A DNA stretch of 64,000 nt, from contig NZ_CP041360.1 of assembly GCF_006965485.1 (NCBI RefSeq), forward strand, positions 3,948,501-4,012,500, given 5' to 3'. Made by a program: the position numbers and the translations under genes. Shown here one piece after another: positions 7,131 to 62,202 of the stretch (position 1 is its first letter; each line of letters begins with the position of its first letter). The notes under the pieces were generated by a model that worked only from the letters and a program-made list of their open reading frames with translations, was not told the origin of the DNA and did not search any database. Origin of the DNA: Spirosoma sp. KCTC 42546 (GTDB taxonomy: Bacteria; Bacteroidota; Bacteroidia; Cytophagales; Spirosomataceae).

Positions 7131-7612
7131 AGTTTGAAGTTTGTAGTTCGAGGTCTGACGTTATAAGTACATGGCAACTTTACAGCGTTTTGAAGAATTG
7201 AAGGCTTGGCAAAAAGCTCGTTTGGTCTCAAAAGAAGTATACCTAATTACTTCGCAAGGACCATTTGCCAAAGATTTTGATCTTAAGGGCCAGATACGTC
7301 GTGCTAGTGGGTCAGCCATGGATAATATAGCAGAAGGTTTTGAGCGTGGAGGAAAAGGTGAGTTTATTCAGTTTCTGGGTATGGCTAAGGGATCTGCTGG
7401 AGAAGTAAGATCACAACTGTATCGGGCATTGGATCAATCATATATTACCCAGACCACGTTCGACAGTCTGTATGCTCAGGCCGAAGAAGTTAGTCGAATG
7501 ATAACAAATTTGATTGCGTATTTGAACCGTTCCACTTACAAGGGGAATAAGTACATCGTTTCTGAAGATTTACCGGACTATAACCTCGAACTACAAACTA
7601 CAAACCTCAAAC
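7131..7612 (+). mobile_element. Candidate S23-like stem-loop insertion: ORF enclosed by inverted repeats
   Basis: The left arm (7131-7154) is made of 7-bp words of the type GTTTGNA. The right arm (7583-7612) contains its complement, with 17 consecutive matching bases (acctcgaactacaaact) and further imperfect matches. The arms enclose the four-helix-bundle ORF at 7171-7626, whose last codons lie in the right arm. The insert separates two genes that are normally adjacent. No transposase and no clear target duplication is seen. Confidence 0.55.
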
Positions 7613-7626
7613 CCGAAGGTTTATGA
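7171..7626 (+). CDS. Four-helix-bundle protein, S23 ribosomal/intervening-sequence protein family
   Basis: A 151-residue protein whose first 120 residues match the S23/IVP four-helix-bundle family: [11 protein letters not shown] at the start, [19 protein letters not shown] in the middle and [19 protein letters not shown] after it. In Leptospira and Coxiella such genes lie in intervening sequences of 23S rRNA; a related fold is the avd protein of diversity-generating retroelements. The function here is unknown. The tail [14 protein letters not shown] is encoded by the right inverted-repeat arm and looks acquired. The TGA overlaps the ATG of the next gene by 4 bp, so translation of the small dehydrogenase subunit may now be coupled to this ORF. 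Confidence 0.88.
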
Positions 7627-8264
7627 AACGCAGAGATTCCTTAAAAACGCTATCGCTCGCCAGCTTTGGTTTAGCTGTTAATCCTGTCGAAGCCAACGTT
7701 CCTGAGCCACCAGACCCGAAACCCCTGAAAATTCCGGGTGGACGGCAGAAGCATGAAGCTGAGCGTGATGCCAAGCTTCATGCCGAGAAATTCTTTACCC
7801 CCCACGAACTACAAACCGTTACCGTTCTGTGCGATATCATCATTCCTGCCGATGAGCGGTCGGGGAGTGCCTCGCAGGCGGGTGTTCCGGCTTTCATCGA
7901 GTTTATGATGAAAGACCAGCCCCGCAACCAGACGCCTATGCGGGGTGGTATTAAATGGCTGGATAACACCTGCGTGAAACGCTATGGCAAGCAGTTTGTG
8001 CTATGCACCAAAGCGCAGCAGATCGACATGGTGGATCAGATTGCCTACCCGAGCAAAGCCACTCCCGACATGACGCAGGGCGCTTCGTTCTTCTCGATGA
8101 TGCGTAACATGACCGCTTCTGGTTTTTATACCAGTCAGATCGGTATCAAAGATCTGGGTTATGTAGGAAACGTACCCAATCAGTGGAACGGTGTGCCAGA
8201 CGATGTCCTGAAGCAATATGGTCTTGCGTATGAACAACGTGAGATTGATGCCTGGAAGGAATAA
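7623..8264 (+). CDS. Gluconate 2-dehydrogenase subunit 3 family protein
   Basis: A 213-residue protein with a twin-arginine-like N-terminus ([18 protein letters not shown]) and the subunit-3 fold signature around HELQTVTVLCDIIIPADERSGSA (residues about 60-82). This family forms the small subunit of membrane-associated FAD dehydrogenases and carries the export signal for the GMC large subunit. It therefore pairs with the gene at 5379. The ATG overlaps the S23-like stop. A strong terminator follows 11 bp after the stop and ends the operon. The substrate of the complex cannot be told from sequence. Confidence 0.85.
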   Translation: MKRRDSLKTLSLASFGLAVNPVEANVPEPPDPKPLKIPGGRQKHEAERDAKLHAEKFFTPHELQTVTVLCDIIIPADERSGSASQAGVPAFIEFMMKDQPRNQTPMRGGIKWLDNTCVKRYGKQFVLCTKAQQIDMVDQIAYPSKATPDMTQGASFFSMMRNMTASGFYTSQIGIKDLGYVGNVPNQWNGVPDDVLKQYGLAYEQREIDAWKE

Positions 8265-8274
8265 CAATTTACAA

Positions 8275-8315
8275 CAAAAAAAGGCCCTGAGAAACTCCTC
8301 AGGGCCTTTTTTTGT
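8275..8315. terminator. Rho-independent terminator, probably bidirectional
   Basis: GGCCCTGAG / CTCAGGGCC stem extended by A- and T-runs on both sides. It separates the GMC operon from the convergent DUF2442 gene. Confidence 0.9.
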
Positions 8316-8320
8316 GACAA

Positions 8321-8563
8321 TTAGAATCGTAAGAAACTTGCTACCGATAAATCTTCATCAAGAGCTTCCCAATGAATACCTTGCCCTCGGCCTATAAATC
8401 GCCAATTGTTGAGATCTACTTCGGAAGCGTCTCGTAAGCAGGGATACCAATCAATAGGTACACCAACCTCTCGACCATCCGTTAGGCGGACATATAGTTT
8501 ACTATCTTCAAACCACACATCGGTGGCGAAAACGGTTTCTGGATTTTTAGTTAAAGTAGCCAT
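8321..8563 (-). CDS. DUF2442 domain protein
   Basis: An 80-residue protein covering the whole DUF2442 domain: VWFEDSKLYVRLTDGREVGVP, then DWYPCLRDAS and a tail with NWRFIGRGQGIHWEALDEDL. DUF2442 genes often follow DUF4160 genes, and the pair has been suggested to act as a toxin-antitoxin-like module; this is not proven here. Its ATG lies inside the end of the DUF4160 frame (overlap 8547-8563), which supports cotranslation. The partner carries an early stop, so this copy may be an orphan. Confidence 0.85.
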   Translation of the reverse strand: MATLTKNPETVFATDVWFEDSKLYVRLTDGREVGVPIDWYPCLRDASEVDLNNWRFIGRGQGIHWEALDEDLSVASFLRF

Positions 8564-8780
8564 GCCAGGCTTGCAGGAGCGTTACTTGATATTCTACTAC
8601 TAATTTACGGATTTGATTTATTTCTTTCGCTGAAAAGCCATAAGAAGATTCCAATTCAACAGGTTCGAGCCAGAATTTGGCAACATCATCACCTTGCTCG
8701 ATGTGTATATGGGGTGGCTCATTACCTTCTTTACTGTAAAAGAAGAATCGAAATCAATCGATGCGGAGTACGGTAGGCAT
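8547..8780 (-). pseudogene. DUF4160 domain gene with nonsense codon 9
   Basis: The minus strand from ATG at 8780 reads MPTVLRID, then TGA at 8754-8756, and continues in the same frame as FRFFFYSKEGNEPPHIHIEQ through AKFWLEPVELESSYGFSA to LLQAWHGYFN and a stop at 8547-8549. The DUF4160 family normally has Gly or another residue at the stop position, so a single GGA-to-TGA change explains it. No ATG is available just after the stop, so the product is probably lost unless the stop is read through or the base is an error. Total frame 77 residues, overlapping DUF2442. Confidence 0.8.
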
Positions 8781-8847
8781 TAAGGTTTTTGTTGCAAATT
8801 AATATTTTTTTTAATTGCACTTTATTGTATTATTCGCTTACTTATTA

Positions 8848-9312
8848 CTATGCTAACCTAAGTTTCATGCCTTCGTTTGTTGCTATGAAACCCAGCGTTT
8901 CATAGAATTGAATAGCTCTGGGTCGTTTCTTATCCGTTATCAATTGGATCATATGGCAGCCTTTTTCTGTAGCCCGGTTAATGGCATAGCTAAAAAGCCG
9001 GGTTCCGAGCCCATTGCCGCGGTAGGCTGAATGCACGCGAACAGCTTCAATCTGCGCTCGCAATCCGCCCTGATGTGTGAGGTATTGGATAAACGATATA
9101 TGGAACGTGCCAACGATTTCGCCATTGATTTCAGCAACGGTTAACTCTTGATTAAAATCGTTTGAGATGCGGAAAAATGCCTTGGTATAGTTCTCTGAAA
9201 GAGGCAGTTCTATGTTTTCCCGCAAGGCACCCAAGGCATCGTCGGCGAGTAGTTTGATGATGGTGAGTAGATCGTTCTCGGTGGCTAAGCGAAAGGTAAG
9301 TTTTTGATCCAT
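8848..9312 (-). CDS. GNAT-family N-acetyltransferase
   Basis: 154 residues from ATG at 9312 (MDQKLTFRLATENDLLTI). The GNAT fold is clear: beta strands around LTVAEINGEIVGTFHI, the acetyl-CoA pyrophosphate loop VRVHSAYRGNGLGTRLF (Q/RxxGxG/A type) and the C-terminal LGFIATNEGMKL. The acceptor substrate is unknown. The frame extends upstream to 9390, but that part would encode an intergenic repeat word (9341-9374), so the later start is preferred. The gene is single and divergent from pyrG. Confidence 0.9.
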   Translation of the reverse strand: MDQKLTFRLATENDLLTIIKLLADDALGALRENIELPLSENYTKAFFRISNDFNQELTVAEINGEIVGTFHISFIQYLTHQGGLRAQIEAVRVHSAYRGNGLGTRLFSYAINRATEKGCHMIQLITDKKRPRAIQFYETLGFIATNEGMKLRLA

Positions 9313-9340
9313 AATCAGGAGGGGGGGCAGAGGTAAAACA

Positions 9341-9374
9341 ATGGTTGATCTCCGTGGCCTCTGTGTCTCTGTGG
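9341..9374. repeat. Solo arm of CACAGAGR-word repeat
   Basis: On the minus strand this reads as repeats of CACAGAG-type words preceded by AACC, the same text that forms both arms of the hairpins at 39058 and 49596. No partner arm is seen here. Confidence 0.5.
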
Positions 9375-9544
9375 TTAATAATTTGCGCAATTACTTGACG
9401 CCTATTGTCTGGATGATGTAAAGATAAAGGGAAAAAGAAGAGACAACATAAAGATTTAGTGAACAGCCGGCTGATGGCCAATTGATTAGCGTAAACCTAC
9501 CAACTTTTCCTTCTGTCATCCTCTCTTTCCTCCTAAATTTCTCT

Positions 9545-9552
9545 TACCTTTA
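9545..9552 (+). promoter_or_regulatory. Possible -7 box upstream of pyrG
   Basis: TACCTTTA differs from TAnnTTTG at one position and lies 32 bp before the pyrG ATG. Confidence 0.3.
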
Positions 9553-9583
9553 CATCCCGTAACGACCTAAACAGGTTTCAATC

Positions 9584-11304: not shown

Positions 11305-11314
11305 CACGAAATTC

Positions 11315-11392
11315 AGTTTGACGTCTGATGTTTGACGTTTGTGGTTTCTCCGGGAGCTACAACATCAAACATCGTACATCAAACATCAAACT
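11315..11392. repeat. Periodic-arm hairpin (GTTTGAYG / CATCAAA words)
   Basis: The left arm 11315-11350 and right arm 11354-11392 are imperfect complements. The right arm is four near-copies of the 7-mer CATCAAA. It lies between pyrG and yidC, 6 bp before the yidC ATG. Confidence 0.75.
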
Positions 11393-13268: not shown

Positions 13269-13347
13269 TGAGTTAAGCATGTAGCGTGAAGAGTAAGAAT
13301 AGACATGATAGATTATTCTTCACTCTTCACGCCACATGCTTAACTCA
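13269..13347. repeat. Hairpin with near-perfect 33-bp arms
   Basis: Left arm from 13269 (TGAGTTAAGCATGTAGCGTG...) and right arm 13314-13347 are complementary except for two or three positions. It lies just after yidC and before the 13375 gene. Confidence 0.8.
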
Positions 13348-13374: not shown

Positions 13375-15153
13375 ATGAACGGTAAATCGTGTTGGTATAA
13401 GCTGATGGTTGTTTGTCTGTTCTGCTTGCTGCAGGGGCACACAACTACGGCTCAGATAGCACCTGAGGTTCAGAAACGCTACAATGCCGCGGTTAACCTG
13501 CTGCGGTCAGGCGATTATGAGCGGGCAAAAACGGATCTGAATGTACTGATTCAGCAACGGGGGCCTCTGGCCCCCTATGCCAGTTATTATTATGCTATTG
13601 CCGCATTTCGTCAGCGAAATTTTGCTCAATCCCGGCTGATGCTTAAACAGTTAATGGACCAATTTCCAGACTGGCGTAAAGTAAACGATGCCTATTATTT
13701 GCTTGCTGCTGTTTCCATGGAAATGGGTCAATATGAAGAGGCACTAACGACTATTCAGCAAATAAGTGATCCTGCACTTCGCCCAGACGTTACGAAACTG
13801 GAACAGAATTTTATACACAGAATTACTGATCTAACAAGCCTAAAACAACTAAACAGAAATTTCCCGAATGATCGAATTATTGGGCTTGCCCTGATTGATC
13901 TGATCCAACGAACCGCTAGCGATAAAGATGATCTGGAACTGTCTGACCGACTAACCAATCGGTTTGGCGTTCCGGGCGTAACAGCTACCCAATCCTCCAC
14001 ATCAACGGTTGTAGGTACACCAAATCAGACCAGTCAGCCAGTTACATCGCCCACCCGTAATTCACGCCCAAAAGGCTATTATAACATTGCGGTGATGTTT
14101 CCGTTCCGGCTCGATGAGTTCAATGCTGAAAAACGAGCCCGTGCCAATCAGTATGTGTATGACCTGTACGATGGGATCAAGATGGCCAAAGCCAAGTTGC
14201 AGGAGGAAGGGATCACGGTCAATGTGTTTGCCTACGATCTTGATAATGACGCCAACAAAACGCTGGAATTAGTTAATAGCCCTGCCTTTGCGCAAACAGA
14301 TCTGATTATCGGGCCGCTTTATATAGAACCGAATCGGATTGCTTCGGCCTATGCCAATCAAAATAATATCCTGCTGCTGAACCCCATTGCGACGAGTAGC
14401 GAGTTGGTGGCGAATCAACCCATGTCCTTTCTGGCACAACCGTCGATGAATCAGCAGGCAAAAAAAGTGGCCGACTATACCCGTAGCCTGAATGGGAGCC
14501 GCCGGGCGGCCATTTATTTTGGGACATCCCGTAAAGATTCATTGCTGGCAATGACCTACCAGAATGAACTCAAACAGCAGAATTATACCGTAATTGATTT
14601 TCGGAAAGTAAGTGGTACAGCACAGGCCATGGCCGATGCCATGCAACTAACGGGAAAACCCACTACGACGCGTCCGGCTGCTACGACGGCTACAATCAAT
14701 GTTGGCCATGTGTTTTTTGCCAGTAGTAACGAAGAAGATGGCGCACGGATGATCGATGCGCTCAGTCGACGGCATGTGATGGGGCCACTCATTACCACGG
14801 CATCGGCCTTTGATTTTTATCGAAATTCAACATCAACCTTCAATCGGAAGGATTTGTATTTACTTTACCCCGATTTCATAGATACCTCACGTGAGCCGGT
14901 CATCTCGTTTCAGGAGCAATACGTAGCCAAACGGAATACGATACCATCCGTTTTTGCCAGTGAAGGCTATGACATGATGCTTTTCTTTGGGCGGCAATTG
15001 GCGAAAAATGGACTCCAGGCCCGGAATCGAAGCAATCTGCACTCTGATACAGACGATTATTTACTGTCGGGTTTCGACTATACACAAACGAATGAAAACC
15101 AAATCGTACCAATCGTAAAATACGAAGATGGGCGGTTGGTTAAAATTAATTAG
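13375..15153 (+). CDS. Exported TPR plus type-1 periplasmic-binding-fold protein
   Basis: 592 residues from ATG at 13375, with a signal peptide (LMVVCLFCLLQGHTTTAQ). Residues about 20-170 look like TPR/tetratricopeptide helices (YYAIAAFRQRNFAQSRLMLK, YYLLAAVSMEMGQYEEALTT). After a Thr/Ser-rich linker, residues about 230-590 resemble an ABC-type branched-chain amino-acid receptor (YNIAVMFPFRL, YDGIKMAKAKLQEEG, DLIIGPLYIEP). This two-part design resembles LpoA-like penicillin-binding-protein activators, but a role in peptidoglycan synthesis is only an inference. The frame opens earlier (13336) inside the hairpin, so the later ATG is chosen. Confidence 0.75.
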   Translation: MNGKSCWYKLMVVCLFCLLQGHTTTAQIAPEVQKRYNAAVNLLRSGDYERAKTDLNVLIQQRGPLAPYASYYYAIAAFRQRNFAQSRLMLKQLMDQFPDWRKVNDAYYLLAAVSMEMGQYEEALTTIQQISDPALRPDVTKLEQNFIHRITDLTSLKQLNRNFPNDRIIGLALIDLIQRTASDKDDLELSDRLTNRFGVPGVTATQSSTSTVVGTPNQTSQPVTSPTRNSRPKGYYNIAVMFPFRLDEFNAEKRARANQYVYDLYDGIKMAKAKLQEEGITVNVFAYDLDNDANKTLELVNSPAFAQTDLIIGPLYIEPNRIASAYANQNNILLLNPIATSSELVANQPMSFLAQPSMNQQAKKVADYTRSLNGSRRAAIYFGTSRKDSLLAMTYQNELKQQNYTVIDFRKVSGTAQAMADAMQLTGKPTTTRPAATTATINVGHVFFASSNEEDGARMIDALSRRHVMGPLITTASAFDFYRNSTSTFNRKDLYLLYPDFIDTSREPVISFQEQYVAKRNTIPSVFASEGYDMMLFFGRQLAKNGLQARNRSNLHSDTDDYLLSGFDYTQTNENQIVPIVKYEDGRLVKIN

Positions 15154-15241
15154 TGGAGTAAGTGAAATAGGTGTAATGAGTAGAGTAAGTATAGCCCTAT
15201 CCCACTCAGTACACTTACTCCACCCAGTCCACTCACTCCAC
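15153..15241. repeat. Imperfect hairpin of GTGGAGTRAG words
   Basis: The left arm begins GTGGAGTAAGTGAAATAG at 15153 right after the stop of the previous gene; the right arm ends CCACTCACTCCAC at 15241. Both arms repeat short GAGTAAGT-like words. It sits 4 bp before hemL. Confidence 0.65.
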
Positions 15242-15245: not shown

Positions 15246-16541
15246 ATGACAACGAGCGAACAGTTATTCGAAAAAGCTAAAACGCTGATTCCTGGCGGAG
15301 TAAACTCACCGGTGCGGGCATTCCGGGCGGTAGGCGGTACACCACTTTTTATCAAGTCGGCCAAAGGGCCTTATCTCTATGATGAAGATGGTCGCCAATA
15401 TATTGAACTGATCAATTCCTGGGGCCCCATGATTTTAGGGCATGCCTTCGAGCCCGTAGAAAAAGCTGTTCGGGATGCCATCCAGCATTCGTTTTCATTT
15501 GGAGCTCCGACGCGCAAAGAAGTCGAGATGGCCGAATTGATTACGACAATGGTTCCTTCCGTGGAGAAGGTACGGATGGTCAACTCCGGTACAGAGGCTA
15601 CCATGGCTGCCATTCGGGTAGCGCGTGGGTTTACCAATCGGGACAAGATCATCAAGTTTGAAGGCTGCTACCATGGCCACGGCGACTCATTTTTGATCGC
15701 TGCCGGAAGTGGTGCCATGACGATGGGCATCCCGGATAGTCCAGGTGTTACAAAAGCTACGGCTGCCGATACACTGACTGCACCGTTCAATGATCTGGCG
15801 GCTGTAGAAGCGTTGCTGGATAATAACCATAACCAGGTGGCGGCTGTCATTCTGGAGCCTGTGGTGGGCAATATGGGCTGCGTATTGCCCGAACCCGGTT
15901 TTCTGGAAGAAATTCGTTCGCTCTGCGACAAGCATGGTGTTGTTCTGATTTTCGACGAAGTCATGACCGGCTTCCGATTAGCAAAGGGCGGAGCACAGGA
16001 ACGATTTGGCATTATTCCGGACCTGACCACTATGGGGAAAATCATCGGTGGCGGGATGCCTGTCGGCGCTTACGGTGGTCGTGCTGATATCATGAATATG
16101 GTATCTCCCGCTGGACCCGTCTATCAGGCCGGAACCCTGTCAGGCAATCCAATTGCGATGTCGGCCGGATTAGCGATGTTGCACCACCTGAATGAACATC
16201 CCGAAGTTTATACGCACCTGGAGGAAATTGGCGAGAAGCTAACCTCCGGTTTCAAGGCTAGTCTACTGAAAATCGGGCTGAATTATACGATCAATCACCT
16301 GGGCTCTATGTTCACGCTGTTCATGACGGAGCAGCCCGTATCGAACTTTACAGATGCCAAGACCTGCGACATACCCTTGTTTGGGCGGTATTTTCACGCC
16401 ATGCTCAAGCGGGGTGTTTACCTGGCACCCTCGCAGTTCGAAAGCCTGTTCTTGTCGGTAGCCTTAACGGATGAGTTAGTAGAGCAGGTAATTCAGGCGA
16501 ATGACGAAAGTTTATTGGAAGTAATGCATACTGTAGACTGA
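15246..16541 (+). CDS. hemL: Glutamate-1-semialdehyde 2,1-aminomutase
   Basis: 431 residues, full length. It isomerises glutamate-1-semialdehyde to 5-aminolevulinate in C5-pathway haem synthesis. The family N-terminus (FEKAKTLIPGGVNSPVRAF) and the SGTEATMAAIR segment are present. The PLP lysine is K265 in TTMGKIIGGGMPVGAYGG, and FDEVMTGFR lies upstream. The last codons (MHTVD) are encoded within the left arm of the hairpin at 16523. cobA and the siroheme-dependent reductase further along use the same tetrapyrrole pathway but are not in the same operon. Confidence 0.96.
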   Translation: MTTSEQLFEKAKTLIPGGVNSPVRAFRAVGGTPLFIKSAKGPYLYDEDGRQYIELINSWGPMILGHAFEPVEKAVRDAIQHSFSFGAPTRKEVEMAELITTMVPSVEKVRMVNSGTEATMAAIRVARGFTNRDKIIKFEGCYHGHGDSFLIAAGSGAMTMGIPDSPGVTKATAADTLTAPFNDLAAVEALLDNNHNQVAAVILEPVVGNMGCVLPEPGFLEEIRSLCDKHGVVLIFDEVMTGFRLAKGGAQERFGIIPDLTTMGKIIGGGMPVGAYGGRADIMNMVSPAGPVYQAGTLSGNPIAMSAGLAMLHHLNEHPEVYTHLEEIGEKLTSGFKASLLKIGLNYTINHLGSMFTLFMTEQPVSNFTDAKTCDIPLFGRYFHAMLKRGVYLAPSQFESLFLSVALTDELVEQVIQANDESLLEVMHTVD

Positions 16542-16619
16542 ATACTGTAAGATGGACAGTTGGTGATAGCCTTGCAGGGGTATTACCCATTTTACAGTAT
16601 TCATTCTATAGTATGCATT
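16523..16619. repeat. Hairpin with 28-bp arms overlapping the hemL 3' end
   Basis: Arms 16523-16550 (AATGCATACTGTAGACTGAA...) and 16592-16619 are complementary except for a few bases. The left arm includes the last six hemL codons, and the right arm ends 3 bp before the ATG of the glycosyltransferase gene. Confidence 0.8.
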
Positions 16620-18276: not shown

Positions 18277-18334
18277 GATTGTATGTTTTTAACGTATCGG
18301 TTCAAAATCAAGGTGCAAAAATACGGTTTTTTCT

Positions 18335-18494
18335 GACAGGATTGACAGGATTGACAGGATTTTTATACTACCATGCCAGTTAAAAGAAATGATTTGACAG
18401 GATTAACGGAAGTTGGATGGGCTAAAAATCCTGTTAATCCTGTAATCCTGTCCATAAACCTTTTTGATTTCTGCAAATCCTGTACTCCTGTCTC
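18335..18494. repeat. Periodic-arm hairpin of GACAGGATT words
   Basis: The left side has three tandem copies of GACAGGATT (18335-18361) and one more near 18396. The right side has the complement AATCCTGT(T) in at least five copies (18426-18494). It fills the spacer before hisS and reaches almost to its -7 box. Confidence 0.75.
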
Positions 18495-19872: not shown

Positions 19873-19952
19873 CCGTTCGACCCCATTCGGGGTCGTATGT
19901 TTATAGAGGTATCTTTTACTATAGACATACGACCCCGAATGGGGTCGAACGG
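19873..19952. terminator. Nested palindrome between hisS and cobA
   Basis: 34-bp arms (19873-19906 and 19919-19952) are near-perfect complements. Each arm contains its own small palindrome GACCCCATTCGGGGTC. It lies 1 bp after the hisS stop, between convergent genes, so it is probably a bidirectional terminator. It is not of the periodic-arm type. Confidence 0.75.
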
Positions 19953-20735: not shown

Positions 20736-20820
20736 TTTCAATGATGAATGAGTGAATGAGCGAATGAGTGAGTTGCTAACGCGAAGCTTATTCACTCATT
20801 CGCTCATTCACTCATTGAAA
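20736..20820. repeat. Periodic-arm hairpin of GAATGAGT words
   Basis: Left arm from 20736 has the 8-mer GAATGAGT/GAATGAGC in tandem; the right arm (20790-20820) is its complement with TTCACTCATTCGCTCATTCA. It fills the whole gap between the reductase stop (20822) and the cobA start (20733). Confidence 0.85.
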
Positions 20821-20821
20821 A

Positions 20822-22972
20822 TTAACTGTCCTGCGCCTGGGTTAATTCCTGTAGTTCGGGTAAACCTTCCTGCTCGATCTGAGCTTCGCGGTTGGCTTGA
20901 ACGGTTTGCAGGAACGCTTCGGCCTGGGCAATGAATCGGCGGGCAAACTCTTCCGACGGCTCCTGTTTGTTTATACTGAACACCAGTGCTTTAAACTCGC
21001 CTTCTACCTGGTGGAAATCCGGTTCACCAACAAAGGTTTTATCGAAATCGCTAACAATGCCATGTTGCGTATTAGTGGGTACGTCCCGACTCATCAAGGC
21101 GGCTCGAGCCCCTGTTATAAATACGTTGTATGTATGGTATAAGGCATCGGACCAGCGACTTTCCGCAAGGGCTTCCCGTGCCCAGCCCAGTTTTTCGCTG
21201 GCTTCTGTCAGGGTTGTAGCCACCAGGTCGATTAGTACGCTAGCGCACTCACCAATACCAACCTCCGTTACGTACTGTTCCGTATGGTCCCAATCGATAT
21301 AATCACTGTCAATGAGAGTTTTGAGGTCGGCCAGTGGTTTCAGTAACTGGTAAAAGTAGTTTTTCCCCTGACGGGCATAGTAATCACTATAGTACTCGCC
21401 ATCGAATGAATTCGCTTCGAAGTCACGCAGTAAATAACGCAACGAATCGGGACCACGTTTAGCCGGGATTTTAATGACTTTGTCGGCAATCAATCCTTCG
21501 CCTTTTCCGTTGAAACCGCCCCCGAGCAGCACTTGTAGGGCAGGGAGCACGTAAGCCCCATTTTTGAGTGATGAGCCGTGATAGCCAATGTTGGCCACCG
21601 AGTGCTGTCCACAGCCATTCATGCAGCCCGAAATCTTGATTTTGATATCGTCGTTGAATACCAGATCCGGGAATTCGTCGTGCATCATGGTTTCCAGTGC
21701 CCGTGTAATCCCGTAACTGCTTGAAATGGCCAGATTGCAGGTGTCCGTACCGGGGCAGGTGGTAATATCAGCGGTGGTATCGAAACCAGGGTCAGCTAAT
21801 CCCAGTGCATTCAAGGCTTCATAAATAGCAGGTAAATCCTCAGGCTTCACAAAACGAAGTAAGTACCCTTGATTGACCGTCACCCGAATATCATCGGCTG
21901 CATACTGGTTTACAATTTGTGCCAGAGCACGGGCTGTATCGGAATGCATATCACCCAGTAACACCCGGAGTTGAACGGCATACCATCCCGCCTGCTTCTG
22001 TTCGAAAACGTTGGTTTTCAGCCAGCGCTCAAAACCTTCGTTCCCACTAAGGACATTCGGAGCCGGAGCATCCGGACGAGCGGCTGGTGGTGTTGCAAAG
22101 AGCGAATTGCCGGAGGTCTCGCCGACTTCATACGATTTGACGCGTAAAGCGGGTGTTTCGTCGGCAATCCGACGGAGCAGTTCCTCTAGCCCAATGTCAT
22201 TGAGCAGGTACTTCATCCGGGCTTTATGCCGCTTTTGGCGCTCCCCATAGCGGTCGAATACGCGAATGACACCTTCAATAAACGGAATTACCCGGTCTTC
22301 TTCCAGAAACTCAAATGCGGTTTGTGCCGAAAAAGGCTGAGCGCCCAAACCACCACCCAGCATTACTTTGAATCCCCGCTGGCCATTCTGCGTGCGGGCA
22401 ACTAGCCCAACATCGTGCATATAGCCATAAGCAGAGTCTTTCTCGCTGGATGAAAGCGAAATTTTAAACTTACGACCCATATCCTGGCAAATTGGATTAC
22501 GCAGGAAATAATCGAATATAGCGTGAGCGTAGGGGGTTATATCAAACGGCTCTAGTGGATCAACGCCTGCCCGTGCCGAACCGGTTACGTTCCGGACGGT
22601 GTTGCCACAGGCTTCTTTCAGGGTAATGCCCGCATCTTCCAGATCAGCCCAGAGTTGGGGCGAATCGGCCAATTTGACAAAGTGCAGCTGGATATCCTGG
22701 CGGGTAGTAGCGTGGAGGTTGCCCGTTGCATACTTGTCCGATAAGTCAGCAATACGAACCAGTTGATCGGCCGTGATGCGTCCGTGGGGGAGCTTGATCC
22801 GAATCATTTGTACCCCTGGTTGCCGCTGGCCATATACACCCCGTGTCAGACGGAATTTCCGGAACGCTTCATCGGCGATATCCCCTTGCTGAAACGAACC
22901 GATTTTCTGAGCCAGATCGAGAATGTCGCGACGGGCGGCTGTACTTACATTGTCAGTGAGCTGAATAGACAT
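20822..22972 (-). CDS. Ferredoxin-type nitrite/sulfite reductase with C-terminal extension
   Basis: 716 residues. Two repeats of the siroheme/Fe4S4 reductase fold are present. Cluster ligands are C406 and C412 (TCPGTDTCNLA) and C450 and C454 (GCMNGCGQH). The N-terminal ferredoxin-like half contains LPHGRITADQLVRIADLSD. Residues about 560-716 form a helical extension of the HEPN-like kind seen in Bacteroidetes members. It reduces sulfite to sulfide or nitrite to ammonia; the two cannot be separated here, and no ATP sulfurylase or nitrate reductase gene is in view. cobA downstream provides the siroheme precursor. Confidence 0.88.
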   Translation of the reverse strand: MSIQLTDNVSTAARRDILDLAQKIGSFQQGDIADEAFRKFRLTRGVYGQRQPGVQMIRIKLPHGRITADQLVRIADLSDKYATGNLHATTRQDIQLHFVKLADSPQLWADLEDAGITLKEACGNTVRNVTGSARAGVDPLEPFDITPYAHAIFDYFLRNPICQDMGRKFKISLSSSEKDSAYGYMHDVGLVARTQNGQRGFKVMLGGGLGAQPFSAQTAFEFLEEDRVIPFIEGVIRVFDRYGERQKRHKARMKYLLNDIGLEELLRRIADETPALRVKSYEVGETSGNSLFATPPAARPDAPAPNVLSGNEGFERWLKTNVFEQKQAGWYAVQLRVLLGDMHSDTARALAQIVNQYAADDIRVTVNQGYLLRFVKPEDLPAIYEALNALGLADPGFDTTADITTCPGTDTCNLAISSSYGITRALETMMHDEFPDLVFNDDIKIKISGCMNGCGQHSVANIGYHGSSLKNGAYVLPALQVLLGGGFNGKGEGLIADKVIKIPAKRGPDSLRYLLRDFEANSFDGEYYSDYYARQGKNYFYQLLKPLADLKTLIDSDYIDWDHTEQYVTEVGIGECASVLIDLVATTLTEASEKLGWAREALAESRWSDALYHTYNVFITGARAALMSRDVPTNTQHGIVSDFDKTFVGEPDFHQVEGEFKALVFSINKQEPSEEFARRFIAQAEAFLQTVQANREAQIEQEGLPELQELTQAQDS

Positions 22973-32477: not shown

Positions 32478-32489
32478 TTTTATTGAATA

Positions 32490-32617
32490 ATTGTTAATGT
32501 ATAATGAATAACGACTTGTTAACAGCGTATCAAAACTGTGTGGAGACAAAGGTAGGCAACGCAGTTTGTCATCTACTTCTCAAATCGTTATTCATTCTTC
32601 ATTGTTCATTATACATT
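32490..32617. repeat. Wide-loop hairpin of AATGTATAATGAAT / ATTCATTMTTCATT words
   Basis: Left arm 32490-32518 and right arm 32581-32617 are imperfect complements across a 62-bp loop. The right arm consists of TTCATT-type words. It overlaps the start of the 32504 ORF, and the right arm encodes its hydrophobic signal segment. Confidence 0.65.
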
Positions 32618-39045: not shown

Positions 39046-39057
39046 GATTTTTAATTA

Positions 39058-39122
39058 AACACAGAGGCACAGATAACACAGAGAATAAATTAAAAACTCA
39101 ATGTTATCTGTGCCGCTATGTT
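39058..39122. repeat. Hairpin of CACAGAGR words
   Basis: Left arm 39058-39078 (AACACAGAGGCACAGATAAC...) pairs with right arm 39102-39122 with two mismatches. The text matches 9341-9374 and 49596-49676. It lies between two convergent genes. Confidence 0.75.
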
Positions 39123-39128
39123 CATTTC

Positions 39129-44410: not shown

Positions 44411-45007
44411 ATGAAATTACATTACACCCTTTCCTGGCCTAAATTAGTGCGCCTGGTCTTCGTTCTGCTTCTGCTGACGGGCTGCAACCCGGCTTCTGAT
44501 AATGTCAGCCCAGACTCCAGTCTAGATCAGGCCCGTCTTCGTACACGGTCCCCCTCAAATTGCGTCGCACTCCAGCTCCCGCTCACTCTTCAAACTAGTT
44601 GCGGCAATATAAACGCCCCCGTGTGCGGCTGCAATAAGGTAACCTACCAGAATGCCTGTTTAGCTCAGGCTGCTGGCATTAGAGTAGAGTACTCAGGGAA
44701 TTGCAAAGAGGACTGCGTTGAAAAGCCGCTCCCTATTATAACGAATTGTCCCTACAATTTCGCCCCCGTGTGCGGCTGCAATAAGGTAACCTACCGGAAT
44801 TCCTGTTTAGCTCAGGCTGCTGGCATTAAAGTAGAGTACTCGGGAAATTGCAAAGAGGACTGCGTCGAAAATCCGCTTCTTCCTCTAACGAATTGCTCCT
44901 TTAATAGCGCCCCCGTGTGCGGCTGCAATAATGTAACCTACCTGAATGCCTGCTTTGCTCAGGCGGTAGGTATTAGAGTGGTCTATTCTGGGAGTTGTAG
45001 ACAGTAG
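44411..45007 (+). CDS. Lipoprotein with three Kazal-type inhibitor domains
   Basis: 198 residues. Lipobox LTGC after a hydrophobic signal (LVFVLLLLTGCNPASDN). Three tandem modules of 49 residues follow, each with the Kazal core APVCGCNxVTYxNxCxAQAxGIxVxYSGxC. The spacing is exactly 147 bp (equivalent points at 44614, 44761 and 44908). Modules 1 and 2 are almost identical in DNA, so the duplication is recent. Kazal domains inhibit serine proteases, so this may protect the cell surface against extracellular proteases; that is an inference. It ends at a perfect terminator. Confidence 0.9.
   Translation: MKLHYTLSWPKLVRLVFVLLLLTGCNPASDNVSPDSSLDQARLRTRSPSNCVALQLPLTLQTSCGNINAPVCGCNKVTYQNACLAQAAGIRVEYSGNCKEDCVEKPLPIITNCPYNFAPVCGCNKVTYRNSCLAQAAGIKVEYSGNCKEDCVENPLLPLTNCSFNSAPVCGCNNVTYLNACFAQAVGIRVVYSGSCRQ
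44614..45000 (+). repeat. Three tandem 147-bp Kazal-coding units
   Basis: Each unit begins near CGCCCCCGTGTGCGGCTGCA. The first two differ at only a few bases over about 100 bp; the third is more diverged. Confidence 0.9.
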
Positions 45008-49580: not shown

Positions 49581-49595
49581 ACATCTAAAAAGGAG

Positions 49596-49676
49596 TAACC
49601 ACAGAGGCACAGAGATCACAAAGAACCCAACGACTAAAATCTGGAAAACTCTGTGTTCTTTGTGCCTCTGTGGTTA
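49596..49676. repeat. Periodic-arm hairpin of CACAGAGG words
   Basis: Left arm from 49596 (TAACCACAGAGGCACAGAGA...) and right arm 49649-49676 (CTCTGTGTTCTTTGTGCCTC...) are complements. The text is shared with 39058-39122 and the solo arm at 9341. It lies between purL and the IMPase-family gene. Confidence 0.85.
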
Positions 49677-49711
49677 AACCTCTTTTTCTATTAGGGAGAA
49701 TTCGCAATAAT

Positions 49712-51193: not shown

Positions 51194-51260
51194 TGTAGAG
51201 TGAAAAGTGAAGAATGAATAATAACGCTTTCGTAGGCTATTCTTCACTTTTCACTCTACA
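51194..51260. repeat. Hairpin with 22-bp perfect arms of GTGAAAAGTGAAG words
   Basis: 51194-51215 and 51239-51260 are perfect complements, 23-base loop. It lies between the DinB-type gene and the Cys-rich small gene, 18 bp before the ATG of the latter. Confidence 0.85.
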
Positions 51261-54706: not shown

Positions 54707-55529
54707 AGACGAAGAACCCACCGCCCGAAAGCTACAGCGGTTACTGGGTGACATTGAGCCTGCCATTCGGGTGGTGGGCATGACAGTTAGTGTCGACGAA
54801 TCGGTGGAGTGGTTGCGGGCGAATCCTCAGCCGGATCTGATCTTTATGGACATTGAACTCGCCGACGGGCAGAGTTTCGATATTTTTAACCAGGTACCTG
54901 TAACGAGTCCGGTTATTTTCACAACGGCCTATGATGAATACGCCATTAAGGCATTTAAAGTCAATAGTATCGACTACCTCCTTAAACCTGTAAAAGAAGC
55001 GGAGTTACGGCAGGCATTGGCTAAACTACAGTCGATGAAGCAGATTTTGTTGGGTTTGCAGGGGGCAGGGGGCGCGGAGCAGGGTGAAAAAAGCCTGCAG
55101 GCATCACTGGTAACCTTGCTTCAACACCTGCAACTATCGTCTCCGTCAGACTCAGTGCCCCCTACTCCGCGCCCCCAGCCCCCCGCAGTTTTCAAAGACC
55201 GGTTCCTGATTAAACAGGGGCAGCGTTTGTTTTCGGTGCCAGTAGAGGAGGTTGCCTATTTTTTCAGTCGGAATAAACTGACATTCATCAAAACCCACGA
55301 CAATCACGACTGGCTCCTTGATCACACCCTCGATGAACTGGCACAACTGCTCGATCCCCGTCATTTTTTTCGGCTTAACCGGCAGGTGATTGCCGACCTG
55401 AAGGCGGTTCATAAAGTTTACCTGTATTTCAATGGCAAGCTCAAGATCAATTTACAGCCGGGCTTTGAGGAAGAAGTGGTGGTTAGCCGGGAAAAAGCCA
55501 GTGAGTTGAAGCGTTGGTTGGGCGAGTAA
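54687..55529 (+). CDS. LytTR-family response regulator with repeat-derived linker
   Basis: 280 residues. Receiver domain 1 to about 120 with acidic pocket IIEDEEP, phosphoacceptor D55 (LIFMDIELADG) and conserved FTTAYDEYAIKAFKVNSIDYLLKPV. The LytTR DNA-binding domain covers about 170-280 (RFLIKQGQRLFSVPVEEVAY, RHFFRLNRQVIADLKAVHK). The linker of about 45 residues (124-167, with GAGGAEQGE and PPTPRPQPP) is encoded by an in-frame G-rich/C-rich inverted repeat. It forms a two-component pair with the kinase just upstream. Target genes unknown. Confidence 0.93.
   Translation: MTILIIEDEEPTARKLQRLLGDIEPAIRVVGMTVSVDESVEWLRANPQPDLIFMDIELADGQSFDIFNQVPVTSPVIFTTAYDEYAIKAFKVNSIDYLLKPVKEAELRQALAKLQSMKQILLGLQGAGGAEQGEKSLQASLVTLLQHLQLSSPSDSVPPTPRPQPPAVFKDRFLIKQGQRLFSVPVEEVAYFFSRNKLTFIKTHDNHDWLLDHTLDELAQLLDPRHFFRLNRQVIADLKAVHKVYLYFNGKLKINLQPGFEEEVVVSREKASELKRWLGE
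55058..55186. repeat. In-frame periodic-arm hairpin in the response-regulator linker
   Basis: Left arm 55058-55084 (7-bp words GCAGGGG) and right arm 55158-55186 are imperfect complements; the inner word GGGGGCGCGGAG matches exactly. The two arms lie in the same open reading frame. Confidence 0.75.
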
Positions 55530-57099: not shown

Positions 57100-57165
57100 A
57101 GGGGTCAGTTGTCAGATACGCCATATCTGCGAGATATGGCGTATCTGACAACTGACCCCTTTTTG
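57100..57165. terminator. Perfect 29-bp hairpin terminator
   Basis: 57100-57128 and 57132-57160 are perfect complements around a 3-base loop GCG, followed by TTTTT. It ends the S41 gene and faces the convergent 57173 gene. Confidence 0.88.
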
Positions 57166-58413: not shown

Positions 58414-58447
58414 TTTGACAACGCGCCGAGTAGTTGGTTTATCTTTG
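58414..58447 (+). promoter_or_regulatory. Promoter of corA
   Basis: TTTG at 58414-58417 (within ACTTTTGACA), 22-bp spacer, TATCTTTG at 58440-58447. It gives a leader of about 40 nt. Confidence 0.6.
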
Positions 58448-58493
58448 ATGCCAAAAATCAGTGTAGCGTTGCTTCTGGAACAACAAACTACCT

Positions 58494-59618
58494 ATGTCGA
58501 AACATAAACGGTACCGTTCTGCCGAGAAAACGCTGGGTACTTCGCCCGGTACGCTAACCTACGTAGGGGCGGAAATTGAGCATGCCACAAAAATTAAACG
58601 CATTGAATTCAATGCCTCAGACTATCGCATCGACGATAGTAGTAAACTAAGTGCCTGTCGGCTACCGGGCTTCGAAACACCTTATATCAACTGGATTGAT
58701 GTGGATGGGATTCATGAGCCGAAAGTGGTTGCGGCTCTGGGGCAGCAGTTTCATTTGCACCCATTATTGCTCGAAGACGTTCTTAATACGGAGCAGAAAC
58801 CCAAAATAGATATCTATGATGAACCAACACCCGGCAATGGCAATGGGGTTGCTCATCCGGCTGGTACAATTGTGTATGTAACGCTCAAAATGCTGCACCA
58901 CAGCCGTCAGCGGCAGGAACTGGATGTGGAGCATGTGAGCTTAGTGTTGGGTAAAAATTACCTGATCTCGTTTCAGGAGGAGCGAACCAGGGATATTTTC
59001 GAACCCGTCATCGAGCGGATTAAAGCCTCTGCCGGAAAAACCCGGCGGAATGGGGCCGATTATCTGCTCTATGCCCTGATGGACGTCATTGTCGATCACT
59101 ATTTTCTGATAACGGAACGTATTGGCGAGAAAATGGATGAGCTGGAAGACCAGATCGTACAGGAGCGGGCCAATCAGCAGACCCTGGCGATCCTGTACAC
59201 CCTGAAGCGTGAACTGGCCTTTATTCGACGAACGGTCTATCCCGTACGCGACATCATCAATACGTTGCTTCGCGAGGAATCCGATGTCATTCAGCACAAC
59301 ACCCTGCCCTACCTGCGCGACCTGGCCGACCATGTTACGCAGGTTATTGAAACGCTGGAATCATATCGGGAATTAACGGCTGGGTTGATGGATGTCTATT
59401 ACTCGATTGTGAGTAACCGGATGAACTCGGTCATGAAAACACTCACTATTTTTTCGGCGATTTTTATGCCACTGACGTTCATTGTGGGTGTGTATGGGAT
59501 GAATTTCGATAACATGCCTGAGCTGCATACCCGCAACGGTTATTTCGTGGTGTGGGGGGGTATGTTTTTGGTAACCATAGGTATGGTTGTGTATTTCAGA
59601 CGGAGACGCTGGATGTAA
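58494..59618 (+). CDS. corA: CorA-type Mg/Co transporter
   Basis: 374 residues. The cytoplasmic alpha/beta domain (1-250) has the CorA fold (WIDVDGIHEPKVVAALGQQF, LHPLLLEDVLN) and a long stalk helix. The two C-terminal membrane helices flank the signature YGMNFDNMPEL (GMN motif at the pore mouth), ending with the basic tail FRRRRWM. It forms a pentamer and conducts Mg2+ into the cytoplasm. murF-alr starts 41 bp downstream on the same strand. Confidence 0.95.
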   Translation: MSKHKRYRSAEKTLGTSPGTLTYVGAEIEHATKIKRIEFNASDYRIDDSSKLSACRLPGFETPYINWIDVDGIHEPKVVAALGQQFHLHPLLLEDVLNTEQKPKIDIYDEPTPGNGNGVAHPAGTIVYVTLKMLHHSRQRQELDVEHVSLVLGKNYLISFQEERTRDIFEPVIERIKASAGKTRRNGADYLLYALMDVIVDHYFLITERIGEKMDELEDQIVQERANQQTLAILYTLKRELAFIRRTVYPVRDIINTLLREESDVIQHNTLPYLRDLADHVTQVIETLESYRELTAGLMDVYYSIVSNRMNSVMKTLTIFSAIFMPLTFIVGVYGMNFDNMPELHTRNGYFVVWGGMFLVTIGMVVYFRRRRWM

Positions 59619-59658
59619 TTTAAAACCTGGGTAACCGGTGGGTGGTCCAGACCGTAGT

Positions 59659-62202
59659 ATGAAAACGAAGAATTTGCAGTTAATAAATCGTCAGTGGTTT
59701 ACCGATTCCCGGCAAGTGACAGGGAATGCTACGGACGCTGTTTTTTTTGCCATACAGGGCGAACACCATGATGGGCACAACTTTATTGGGGAGCTTTACC
59801 AGAAAGGTGTAAGACAGTTTGTGGTGGAACGGTCGGCGCTGACACCCGAGCGCCGAACGGAATTCATTGCGTATGCCGATGCAACGTTCATTGAGGTCGA
59901 TAGTAGTCTGCAAACAATGCAAACACTGGCCGCTGAACATCGGAAACGGGTTCAAATTCCGATTATTGGCATTACAGGGAGCAACGGCAAAACCATAGTT
60001 AAGGAATGGCTGGCTCAATTACTCGATGGAGGGCAGTCGCCGGACGAGTATGTGGTCGTTAAAAGTCCCAAGAGCTATAACTCGCAACTGGGAGTACCGC
60101 TGTCGGTTCACCAACTTACCGATAAGCATACCCTGGGAATTTTTGAGGCCGGGATTTCCAAGGTCCATGAGATGCAATCGCTGGAGGCTATTATCCGACC
60201 AACAATTGGCATTTTTACCAACATAGGCACGGCCCATGATGAGGGGTTCCGGACCCGGAAACAGAAAATAGCCGAAAAGCTCCGGCTATTTATTCACGCC
60301 AATACCCTCATTTACTGTTCCGATTACACCGATATTGACGAAGAAGTACATCTGCTGCTCAAAGCGGTCAATCCAACTATGAACGTCATTACCTGGTCGC
60401 TGAATGGGAAACCGGCTACGTATCAGGGTAAGTTGCAGCATGACCAATTGACCTTGACAAGCAAAGAGGGTACGGCTATTCAGCTAAAATTACCCTTTAC
60501 AGACCCTGCTTCGGTGGAGAATCTGATGCATTGTCTGGTAACGCTCCTGACGCTGCATCCCTGGACTACCGAGGCCCTGCAAGCCCGGTTGAATCGCCTT
60601 AGACCGGTTTCAATGCGGCTGGAACAGAAAGAGGGTATCAATAACTGTGTACTGATTGACGATTCGTATAATAATGACGTTGCTGGCTTGCAACTGGCGC
60701 TCAGTTTTCTCAATCAACAGAGTACCCGGCCTCGTCGGGTGGTCATTCTGTCGGATGTACTACAGTCGGGTCAGGCCGAACACGATCTGTATGAACAGGT
60801 TGGGACACTGATCCGCACCAATGCAATTGACCAATTTATTGGGATTGGCCCGGTCCTGAGTCGGAATGCTCATTTTTTTGCTGATTCCAGTTTATTCTTC
60901 GCGACCACGGATGCCTTTTTAACTCAGTTCCCATTCCACGAACTGCGCGACAGTTCTGTATTAGTAAAAGGGGCAAGGCCGTTCTCCTTCGAGCGGATTG
61001 TGGCCCGCCTGGAGCGGAAAGTCCACGGGACTGTTCTTGACATAAATCTGGATGCGCTGACGCATAACCTGAACTATTATCGGGACAAAGTAGGGTCCGA
61101 CACGAAGCTGATGGTCATGGTGAAGGCTTTTGCCTATGGCAGTGGCAGTACGGAAGTGGCACAACTCCTGCAATTTCACCGGGTCGATTACCTGGCGGTT
61201 GCCTACGCCGACGAAGGGATAGCGCTTCGGCAAAATGGGATCGAGCTACCCATCATGGTGATGAATCCTGCCCCTGAAACCTTCGATGCGCTGCTGGCGT
61301 ACAACCTGGAGCCTGAACTGTACAGCATGCGGATTTTGCGGGAGTGGGGTAGGTTTGTGCAGGGAGCGGGGAGCATGGAGCGGGGAGCAGGGGGCAAGGA
61401 GCAGGGAGATGGGAGCGACCTAAACCCTGCTCCGCGCTCCATGCCCTCTGCCAAAACCTCCCTGCACCTGAAAATTGACACCGGTATGCATCGGCTGGGG
61501 TTTCTGGAAACGGAGCTGGCAGAGGTAGCGAACTACTTGAAAGGCCACGATAATCTGCATGTGGCAACGGTGTTCAGCCATTTGGTTGGTTCCGATGATG
61601 CCCGGTTCAATAGTTTCTCAACGCAGCAATATGAAACCTTTCTGCGAAGTACAGCTATACTCGAAGCGGCTTTAGGCTACCGTCCAACGCGCCATCTGCT
61701 TAACTCGGCCGGTATTGTACGCTTTCCGGACTATAAACTCGATATGGTTCGCCTGGGTATTGGTCTATACGGAGTTGAAGCCAGTGGGATCAATCAGGCG
61801 GCTTTACAGACGGTTGGCACCCTTCGAACGGTGATCAGTCAGATCAAAACCGTTCGGGCAGGGGAGTCGATCGGGTATAGCCGGCGGGGAGTGCTTGATC
61901 ATGAAGCCCGCATCGCCACCCTGGCCATCGGTTATGCCGACGGTTTCGATCGTCGACTGGGCAATGGCGTTGGTCAGGTTTGGGTAAATGGAACGCGCTG
62001 TCCAACCGTTGGCAATGTGTGCATGGATATGACCATGATCGACGTCACGTCGGCAGTGGCTTCGGAAGGGGATGACGTCATAATTTTTGGTCCTGATCTA
62101 CCCATTACGGAATTGGCAAAACAGATGGACACAATTCCGTATGAGATCCTGACGGGTGTTAGTGAACGGGTAAAACGGGTGTTTTTCAAGGAGGGAAACT
62201 AA
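59659..62202 (+). CDS. murF-alr: Bifunctional UDP-MurNAc-tripeptide:D-Ala-D-Ala ligase / alanine racemase
   Basis: 847 residues. MurF part (1 to about 455): P-loop GSNGKT at 107-112, IGTAHDEGF and LIDDSYNND. Alr part (about 465-847): PLP lysine K489 in MVMVKAFAYGSG, KIDTGMHRLGF, the catalytic Tyr740 in IGYSRRG, and NVCMDMTMIDVT near the C-terminus. The fusion links D-Ala supply to cell-wall precursor ligation and is known in Bacteroidetes. Residues about 565-600, between LREWGRFV and SLHLKIDTG, are an in-frame low-complexity insert from an inverted repeat. ATG at 59659 is preferred over 59638. Confidence 0.95.
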   Translation: MKTKNLQLINRQWFTDSRQVTGNATDAVFFAIQGEHHDGHNFIGELYQKGVRQFVVERSALTPERRTEFIAYADATFIEVDSSLQTMQTLAAEHRKRVQIPIIGITGSNGKTIVKEWLAQLLDGGQSPDEYVVVKSPKSYNSQLGVPLSVHQLTDKHTLGIFEAGISKVHEMQSLEAIIRPTIGIFTNIGTAHDEGFRTRKQKIAEKLRLFIHANTLIYCSDYTDIDEEVHLLLKAVNPTMNVITWSLNGKPATYQGKLQHDQLTLTSKEGTAIQLKLPFTDPASVENLMHCLVTLLTLHPWTTEALQARLNRLRPVSMRLEQKEGINNCVLIDDSYNNDVAGLQLALSFLNQQSTRPRRVVILSDVLQSGQAEHDLYEQVGTLIRTNAIDQFIGIGPVLSRNAHFFADSSLFFATTDAFLTQFPFHELRDSSVLVKGARPFSFERIVARLERKVHGTVLDINLDALTHNLNYYRDKVGSDTKLMVMVKAFAYGSGSTEVAQLLQFHRVDYLAVAYADEGIALRQNGIELPIMVMNPAPETFDALLAYNLEPELYSMRILREWGRFVQGAGSMERGAGGKEQGDGSDLNPAPRSMPSAKTSLHLKIDTGMHRLGFLETELAEVANYLKGHDNLHVATVFSHLVGSDDARFNSFSTQQYETFLRSTAILEAALGYRPTRHLLNSAGIVRFPDYKLDMVRLGIGLYGVEASGINQAALQTVGTLRTVISQIKTVRAGESIGYSRRGVLDHEARIATLAIGYADGFDRRLGNGVGQVWVNGTRCPTVGNVCMDMTMIDVTSAVASEGDDVIIFGPDLPITELAKQMDTIPYEILTGVSERVKRVFFKEGN
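61351..61459. repeat. In-frame periodic-arm hairpin inside murF-alr
   Basis: Left arm 61351-61392 is tandem 7-mers GGAGCGG, GGAGCAT, GGAGCAG. Right arm 61425-61459 (CCCTGCTCCGCGCTCCATGC...) is its complement. The 36-codon insert lies in the racemase half, in frame. Confidence 0.8.

Follow-up and report, generated by a model that had tools for sequence, protein, structure and literature searches.

Dispersed hairpins with periodic arms in a Spirosoma genome and their link to genes of the S23 (PF05635) family

Introduction

Repetitive extragenic palindromic (REP) sequences and the REP-associated tyrosine transposases (RAYTs) form a system of dispersed intergenic palindromes in which the protein gene lies between inverted copies, many copies have no gene, and protein and repeat coevolve (PMC2817692). 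A similar arrangement was found in a stretch of 64,000 nucleotides of Spirosoma sp. KCTC 42546, here called the window (positions 3948501-4012500 of the 8.66-Mb chromosome; GC content 49%). The initial annotation of this DNA had listed 13 sites with long hairpins of constant layout, the arms of which are tandem words of 7-9 bp that differ from site to site. Inverted repeats are indeed present at all 13 sites, and the constant layout with differing words was borne out. Twelve of the sites are hairpins, while the two arms of the remaining one, at 7131/7583, enclose a gene of the S23 family (PF05635). Such S23 elements, and their relation to the gene-less hairpins, are the subject of this paper.

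S23 ORFs (open reading frames) have been described in intervening sequences (IVSs) of 23S rRNA, where they are located in a hairpin of terminal inverted repeats and have been called selfish. The protein was described as a ring of five four-helix bundles of unknown function (PMC4990558), and PF05635 is referred to as functionally uncharacterised (PMC11270868). The family resembles Avd of diversity-generating retroelements (PMC10053308). Tandem 7-bp intergenic repeats, some of which form hairpins and for which no function was known, have been reported from cyanobacteria as short tandemly repeated repetitive (STRR) sequences (PMC2670836) and as TAACTGA repeats, for which horizontal spread without an evident mechanism was suggested (PMC4679880). 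The heptamers GGGAATC of Xanthomonas and GGGGA(C/T)T of Nostoc are mostly intergenic as well. A Xanthomonas genome with 186 GGGAATC patterns has 70 convergent close pairs, and the places of the patterns are largely common to two species (PMC4692102). S23 is not named as a partner of the repeats in the accessible parts of PMC2670836, PMC4679880 and PMC4692102. In searches of an open-access library, which lacks most subscription papers, no report linking heptamer repeats to S23 was found.

S23 genes and their arms

The window gene at 7171..7626 on the forward strand matches TIGR02436 ('four helix bundle protein', E 4.4e-32) and PF05635 ('23S_rRNA_IVP'), and also two NCBIfam models named 'hypothetical protein'. 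It is enclosed by a 5' periodic arm, GTTTGAAGTTTGTAGTTCGAGG (7132..7165), and a 3' periodic arm (7579..7612) located within the C-terminal part of the reading frame. Arms were scored by locally aligning the upstream flank to the reverse-complemented downstream flank, with a cut-off of at least 25. There are six PF05635 matches in the genome, including one that contains a stop. Inverted periodic arms above this cut-off enclose every one of them, each time with a different word: GTTTGAAG, GGGAGGAA, TATGATG, GTCATT (spaced), AATGGATAATG and GTGGAGTGAGTG.

PF05635 is present in 35 of the 36 genomes of the genus, in 106 of 148 genomes drawn evenly from the phylum of the window and in 45 of 98 drawn evenly from the phylum of Fischerella. 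Arms scoring at least 25 were found at 64 of the 75 genus loci examined, out of 108 matches listed, and at 21 of 30 loci elsewhere in the phylum (the best matches of 30 of the 106 positive genomes). In other phyla 28 of 30 loci had such arms, in a sample that is biased, its genomes having been chosen for TAACTGA arrays and locus L249 having been found via its arrays (L298 and L313 are the same element, and L313 was left out; loci are given as L numbers and genomes as G numbers). Because of this bias, 28 new loci from the phylum of Fischerella, the best matches of 28 of the 45 positive genomes, were tested, and arms were present at 26. Of the two others, one is truncated at the end of a contig, and the other, L401, shows a clear 3' arm of the GTCATT type. 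Small ORFs used as controls reached the same score in 1/62, 3/84 and 8/80 cases, and random positions in 9/800, 17/1600 and 161/3200 cases.

The arms were found to be periodic (p ≤ 0.05) at 125 of the 139 armed S23 loci, with a period of 7 in 86, of 8 in 30, of 9 in 6 and of other lengths in 3. G exceeds C on the 5' arm at 126 of the 139 loci, with the reverse at 8 and ties at 5; the 5' arms of the genus contain 31.9% G and 3.8% C. Since a hairpin of the form X...rc(X) is identical on both strands, this G excess is intrinsic and not relative to transcription, and the idea that the G-rich arm marks a polarity relative to the gene was rejected. A Pfam search with eight S23 proteins returned only PF05635, plus a weak bAvd match in one of them. 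Relatives by sequence with a solved structure are 2gsc and 2rld.

The arm word follows the S23 protein

Arm words were compared by 5-mer cosine with one element per site (66 sites), and a word was regarded as shared at a cosine of at least 0.3. The mean cosine is 0.025 for S23 proteins less than 25% identical and 0.281 for those at least 55% identical. A word is shared by 12 of 13 pairs at 70% identity or more and by 11 of 54 pairs at 55-70%, compared to 0/13 and 1/54 in a reversed-reading control. Between taxon groups, 6 of 9 pairs at 55% identity or more share the word versus 0 of 9 reversed; three of these nine pairs involve L128 and are therefore not independent. The Mantel correlation was 0.40, a value reached in none of 5000 permutations.

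TAACTGA, read inward as TCAGTTA, is the arm word of one S23 subtype, found in Nostocales (L249), Anabaena (L306) and the genus of the window (L128), with a near variant in Microcystis (L292); the S23 proteins of this class are 63-66% identical to that of L128. The only S23 gene among 5526 ORFs at 80 TAACTGA loci, that of L249, is located between inverted TAACTGA arrays. The word GTCATT is common to L032 of the Spirosoma genome, L297 of Brasilonema and L311 of Anammoxibacter, and AGCTATC is common to L286 of Bryobacteraceae, L287 of Nostocales and L170. Neutral sites were checked in twelve pairs picked for word sharing, nine across phyla and three within cyanobacteria. In the nine cross-phylum pairs identity at third codon positions is 0.27-0.42 (background mean 0.32) and the 5' spacers lie within background, while the arms, with scores of 21-42, exceed the 95th percentile of the background, which is 17. 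The word thus outlasts neutral sequence across phyla. The three cyanobacterial pairs have third positions that are 0.45-0.56 identical, and one of them also has a similar spacer.

Word prediction was also tried on new loci. When the nearest earlier S23 was at least 70% identical, 6 of 7 new loci shared its word, although one of the six (L400) is a trivial case with 97% identity to its reference. Together with the failures at lower identity given below, these results indicate that word and protein stay coupled at short and intermediate distances, beyond which the word changes.

Gene-less hairpins

Hairpins (arms ≥18 bp, pairing ≥78%, loop ≤120) were surveyed in 464 kb, made up of the window and of 20 stretches of 20 kb each, spaced evenly along the chromosome. 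The survey yielded 88 hairpins, whereas an order-1 Markov resample, made once for every surveyed stretch, yielded none, which supports the initial annotation. Judged by shuffling each arm, 29 of the 88 are periodic at p ≤ 0.01 and 37 at p ≤ 0.05, and the period is 7 in 20 of the 29. Outside the window 22 of the 29 were found, or 5.5 per 100 kb, from which several hundred per genome are extrapolated. Among the 37, by our own ORF calls, 33 are intergenic and 4 are within genes. G exceeds C on the 5' arm in 34 of the 37, with the reverse in two and one tie.

Most periodic hairpins carry words known from S23 elements. Of the 37, 73% match an arm word of a genus S23 element (cosine ≥0.35), against a mean of 32% and a maximum of 49% for word-permuted dictionaries that keep period and composition (20 trials). 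Only 12% of the non-periodic hairpins (n=51) match genus words, and the gene-less hairpins match S23 words from elsewhere in the phylum and from other phyla in 5% and 11%, respectively. The suggestion that the hairpins cannot be recent copies of one sequence holds for the set as a whole, but the words do form families, and most words of the gene-less hairpins are those of genus S23 elements. For example, GAGGCACAGAGANCACAGAG, a 20-mer pattern of the CACAGAGG word, is matched exactly at 60 places in the genome (30 on each strand), and many of these form inverted pairs ~15-50 bp apart.

Orthologous sites

Flanking genes of two regions were located in 20 genus genomes per region, not every gene being found in every genome, and only hairpins scoring above every shuffle were counted. 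The pyrG-yidC spacer holds a hairpin in 20 of 21 rows between well-conserved flanks, and at least five classes of word can be told apart by eye (GTTTG, AGTC, AAGT, AGTTTTC and AGTCGGTA). The tpr-hemL spacer has one in 16 of 21 rows and the dinB-DUF4403 spacer in 12 of 21, the latter with GTGAAAAG in the Spirosoma genome under study, TATGATG-type words in G003 and G008 and a AATGGATAATG-type word in G032. At cobA-sulfite reductase all six rows have a hairpin, with at least four words. Words differ at orthologous sites B, D, E, H and J. The yidC-tpr spacer, by contrast, has a terminator-like stem whose sequence is the same in 17 of 21 rows. In the hemL-glycosyltransferase spacer G005 has a longer, non-periodic hairpin and G004 a shorter one, with the outer sequence in common (L078, L074), possibly a nested insertion.

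Site A (gmc-h213) carries the S23 element of the window, and S23 elements are present there in G008 and G018 as well. In G016 the site holds an internal deletion of an S23 element (L084), in which the gene start and the C-terminal end are kept between the arms, and in G035 a gene-less hairpin with another word. Eight of the 13 rows, those of the near relatives G003 and G032 among them, lack both periodic hairpin and element; G003, G032 and G006 have neither hairpin nor gene. The S23 proteins of the Spirosoma genome and G008 are 53% identical while the flanking proteins are 96-97% identical, which points either to replacement or to very fast evolution as reported for RAYTs. At cysH-cysD, the Spirosoma genome has a GTCATT S23 element, and among 28 relatives in which the spacer is short, 18 carry a gene-less hairpin that outscores all 30 shuffles, with mostly GAGTGAAAGAGC or GATTGAATG words and GTTTCAAG in G008. 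Thus, the hairpins are absent, present or built from another word at orthologous sites, and they are not kept unchanged as plain terminators, in line with what the initial annotation had supposed.

Interpretation and alternative explanations

The data are best explained if the hairpins represent S23 elements together with derivatives that lack the gene, which behave in a REP/RAYT-like manner with a non-catalytic, word-matched protein. We estimate the probability of this explanation at roughly two in three. A full element would consist of a periodic arm of 7-9 bp words, usually with G exceeding C on the 5' arm, a small S23 gene and the complementary periodic arm, and most copies would be hairpin only. 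Each S23 protein most likely reads the repeated word that characterises its element class, possibly with one subunit ring per run of words, as far as sequence comparison suggests. Such recognition would keep word and protein together and would allow gene-less hairpins with the same word to be maintained or moved in trans. We infer that gene-less copies derive from full elements, one internal deletion (L084) having been seen, and that they are mobilised in trans. Slippage and template switching probably help to keep the arms periodic and complementary. Of the arm-building process envisaged in the initial annotation, a dedicated protein is supported, but its being an enzyme is not.

Several observations weigh against this explanation. 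Neither excision nor a new insertion was seen directly, and no clear target-site duplication was found; none is obvious at the empty sites of site A, where the exact ends are uncertain. The S23 proteins have no catalytic domain. Clear arms are lacking at 11 of the 75 genus loci and 9 of the 30 loci elsewhere in the phylum, 27% of the periodic gene-less hairpins have no genus S23 word, no S23 partner was found for the CACAGAGG (pattern GAGGCACAGAGANCACAGAG) and GACAGGATT words, and 10 of the 28 relatives have no hairpin above shuffles at cysH-cysD. Word prediction failed for all 11 new loci at 55-70% identity and all 8 below. Common descent of whole elements accounts for part of the correlation between word and protein (74 genus elements fall in 24 sites), and it is covariation that suggests word binding by S23. 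Most TAACTGA arrays of other phyla are direct repeats: of 94, none has a dimer in the opposite orientation within 100 bp and 7 have one within 700 bp, and a pattern search for close inverted TAACTGA triplets gave no match; the idea that these arrays are hairpins was dropped for most of them.

Hairpins could also be self-made, slippage making and homogenising the words and template switching at quasi-palindromes copying the arms, with S23 as a bystander. The arms are at once periodic and complementary, words vary within one array, and G.T and A.C mismatches are equally frequent (69 vs 65 and 10 vs 12 in two counts), so that selection on pairing at the RNA level is not visible; all of this would fit. 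However, enclosure by arms is far more frequent for S23 genes than for other small ORFs, the word follows S23 similarity across phyla with neutral sites near background, and near relatives have quite different, not drifted, words between well-conserved flanks. Slippage or template switching alone, as proposed in the initial annotation, leaves the enclosed S23 genes and the cross-phylum likeness of words unexplained, and we regard this explanation as unlikely.

Rather improbable, in our view, is that the hairpins are the target, S23 genes inserting into the loops of existing periodic hairpins as rRNA IVSs do at the tips of rRNA helices. It would account for gene-less hairpins far outnumbering the six S23 matches of the genome, and at cysH-cysD the place occupied by the element holds a gene-less hairpin in many relatives. 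The word of this element, GTCATT, nevertheless differs from the GAGTGAAAGAGC and GATTGAATG words of the relatives, so arms and gene seem to have arrived together. The empty sites of site A have no hairpin in the absence of the gene, and matching of word and protein across phyla would not be expected of a target.

A similarly low probability is given to movement by a partner enzyme, either a reverse transcriptase, as with the S23-like Avd, or a Y1 transposase of the REP type. The resemblance of S23 to Avd (PMC10053308) and the weak bAvd match of one S23 speak for the former. Yet the Spirosoma genome has no PF00078 match at E ≤ 1e-8, and in the phylum reverse transcriptases are unlinked to S23 (39/106 S23-positive versus 17/42 other genomes, p 0.71). 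A reverse transcriptase as required partner was therefore rejected. Genome G138, of the same class, has 19 reverse transcriptase and 12 S23 matches. Y1 transposases, of which the Spirosoma genome has three, are more frequent in those genomes of the phylum that have S23 (73/106 versus 18/42, p 0.005), an association that is uncorrected for genome size or kinship. Among 50 genomes with at least five S23 matches, 30 have no reverse transcriptase, 8 no Y1 transposase and 5 neither (E 1e-8). A Y1 transposase as obligatory partner was rejected, given the weak association and its absence from 8 of these 50 genomes.

Very improbable is that the hairpins are ordinary RNA structures (terminators, stabilisers of 5' untranslated regions or processing sites) under selection for hairpin formation irrespective of the word: the pyrG-yidC hairpin is found in 20 of 21 species directly after a conserved promoter-like motif, 33 of the 37 periodic hairpins are intergenic, and such selection could act on top of S23 elements, but there is no G-U excess in the sense of transcription, the yidC-tpr stem stays constant where periodic hairpins change words, 4 of the 37 are within genes, and the association with S23 is left unexplained.

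Hairpins and other repeats of the window

Of the twelve gene-less sites, nine have arms with periodicity at p ≤ 0.015 (11315, 13269, 16523, 18345, 20747, 32496, 51194, 55057 and 61373), in agreement with the 7-9 bp periodicity claimed in the initial annotation. Both CACAGAGG sites, at 39058 (p 0.75) and 49596 (p 0.33), have degenerate words and no significant periodicity, and the 15153 hairpin, with arms of 21 bp that are 81% complementary, falls below the arm threshold of the periodicity scan.

The hairpin with the GTTTGANG word (11316..11391) is located in the pyrG-yidC spacer directly after a conserved TAATTTTG motif, which we take to be like a promoter -7 element. In the yidC-tpr spacer (13269..13347) the closest word is that of the genus S23 element L127 (cosine 0.38). 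The tpr-hemL hairpin (15153..15241), with the GTGGAGTAAGTG word, resembles by eye L034, an S23 remnant of the same genome, and the hemL-glycosyltransferase hairpin (16523..16619; ATACTGTAGACTGAATACTGTA) has no S23 word match (cosine 0.25). The hairpin at 18334..18451 carries the GACAGGATT word. In the cobA-sulfite reductase spacer (20740..20823) the GAATGAGTGAATGAGC word corresponds to that of genus element L144 (cosine 0.76), and relatives have another word. The AATGTATAATGAATAA word at 32484..32615 corresponds to L136 (cosine 0.58), with an element site in common with L033 of the same genome. The CACAGAGG word is degenerate at 39053..39127, and the hairpin at 49587..49685 carries its 20-mer pattern. 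The dinB-DUF4403 hairpin (51194..51260; GTGAAAAGTGAAG word) corresponds to L130 (cosine 0.69), relatives having other words.

Two of the listed hairpins, at 55057 and 61366, are in frame within genes. The first (GCAGGGGGCAGGGGG, 55057..55187) lies in a LytTR regulator gene. The second (61359..61451), with a GGAGCNN word similar to that of S23 remnant locus L138 (cosine 0.52), is found in a MurF-Alr fusion, within a variable loop of the alanine racemase part. Hairpin-like inserts with GGAGC words occur in frame in this loop in several species (L317-L345); including that of the window, they vary in length and keep the frame. A further hairpin, beyond those listed, was found at 57100..57160, a 29-bp perfect palindrome that is weakly periodic (lag 7, p 0.015) and absent in both relatives compared (G003, G032). 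A 34-bp near-perfect palindrome centred on CGACCCCATTCGGGGTCG (19873-19952) is non-periodic and probably belongs to a separate repeat class. Inside the ORF 44411-45007 there is a tandem repeat of 147 bp (44614-44964; 2.4 copies, 88% matches), presumably resembling cysteine-rich Kazal-type repeats.

Comparison with known systems and significance

The link between word and protein found here parallels the coevolution of REP sequences and RAYTs. RAYTs are, however, tyrosine transposases, and S23 has no such domain; moreover, the arms described here are tandem 7-9 bp words that change completely between subtypes. Like the IVSs of 23S rRNA, the elements have an S23 ORF between terminal inverted repeats. 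IVSs are located in rRNA genes, whereas an Rfam scan found no rRNA at 80 S23 loci and none in the window. Tandem heptamers in intergenic DNA, the feature of STRR sequences, are found here too, and the likeness to cyanobacterial heptamer repeats, mentioned without being claimed in the initial annotation, gains weight since S23 elements with such arms are present in that phylum. Most TAACTGA arrays examined differ in being direct repeats. GGGAATC repeats, compared by description, have been studied as G-quadruplexes and are generally not found with mobile elements (PMC4692102). Diversity-generating retroelements differ by their reverse transcriptase, for which the Spirosoma genome has no match. 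Like a miniature inverted-repeat transposable element (MITE), one copy (L084 at site A) is an internal-deletion derivative of a larger element. Intrinsic terminators would keep one stem sequence across orthologous sites, which these hairpins do not. None of the known kinds tested accommodates the system in all its defining features, and it is therefore regarded as a new kind with a REP-like mode of action.

The link between S23 and the word suggests that a class of spreading DNA element has so far gone unrecognised, and the separately reported heptamer repeats (STRR, TAACTGA and GGGAATC) look like parts of the same picture. A wider proposal, which we put forward tentatively and hold to be somewhat doubtful, is that S23 (PF05635) forms pan-bacterial, transposase-free spreading elements, in which a ring-forming protein reads a short word that changes completely as the protein evolves, and in which this protein and host DNA processing would suffice to seed or replace inverted intergenic arrays. 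The heptamers of cyanobacteria, Beggiatoaceae, Xanthomonas and Bacteroidetes and the S23 IVSs of rRNA would then be facets of one phenomenon, and the code from S23 to word might be read from genomes. Through the link to S23, heptamer repeats that have been puzzling in several phyla gain a protein partner. If each S23 binds its own word, the several hundred hairpins per genome that are extrapolated here would have an explanation, and the family would represent a natural set of proteins that read nucleic acids and whose targets can themselves be read.

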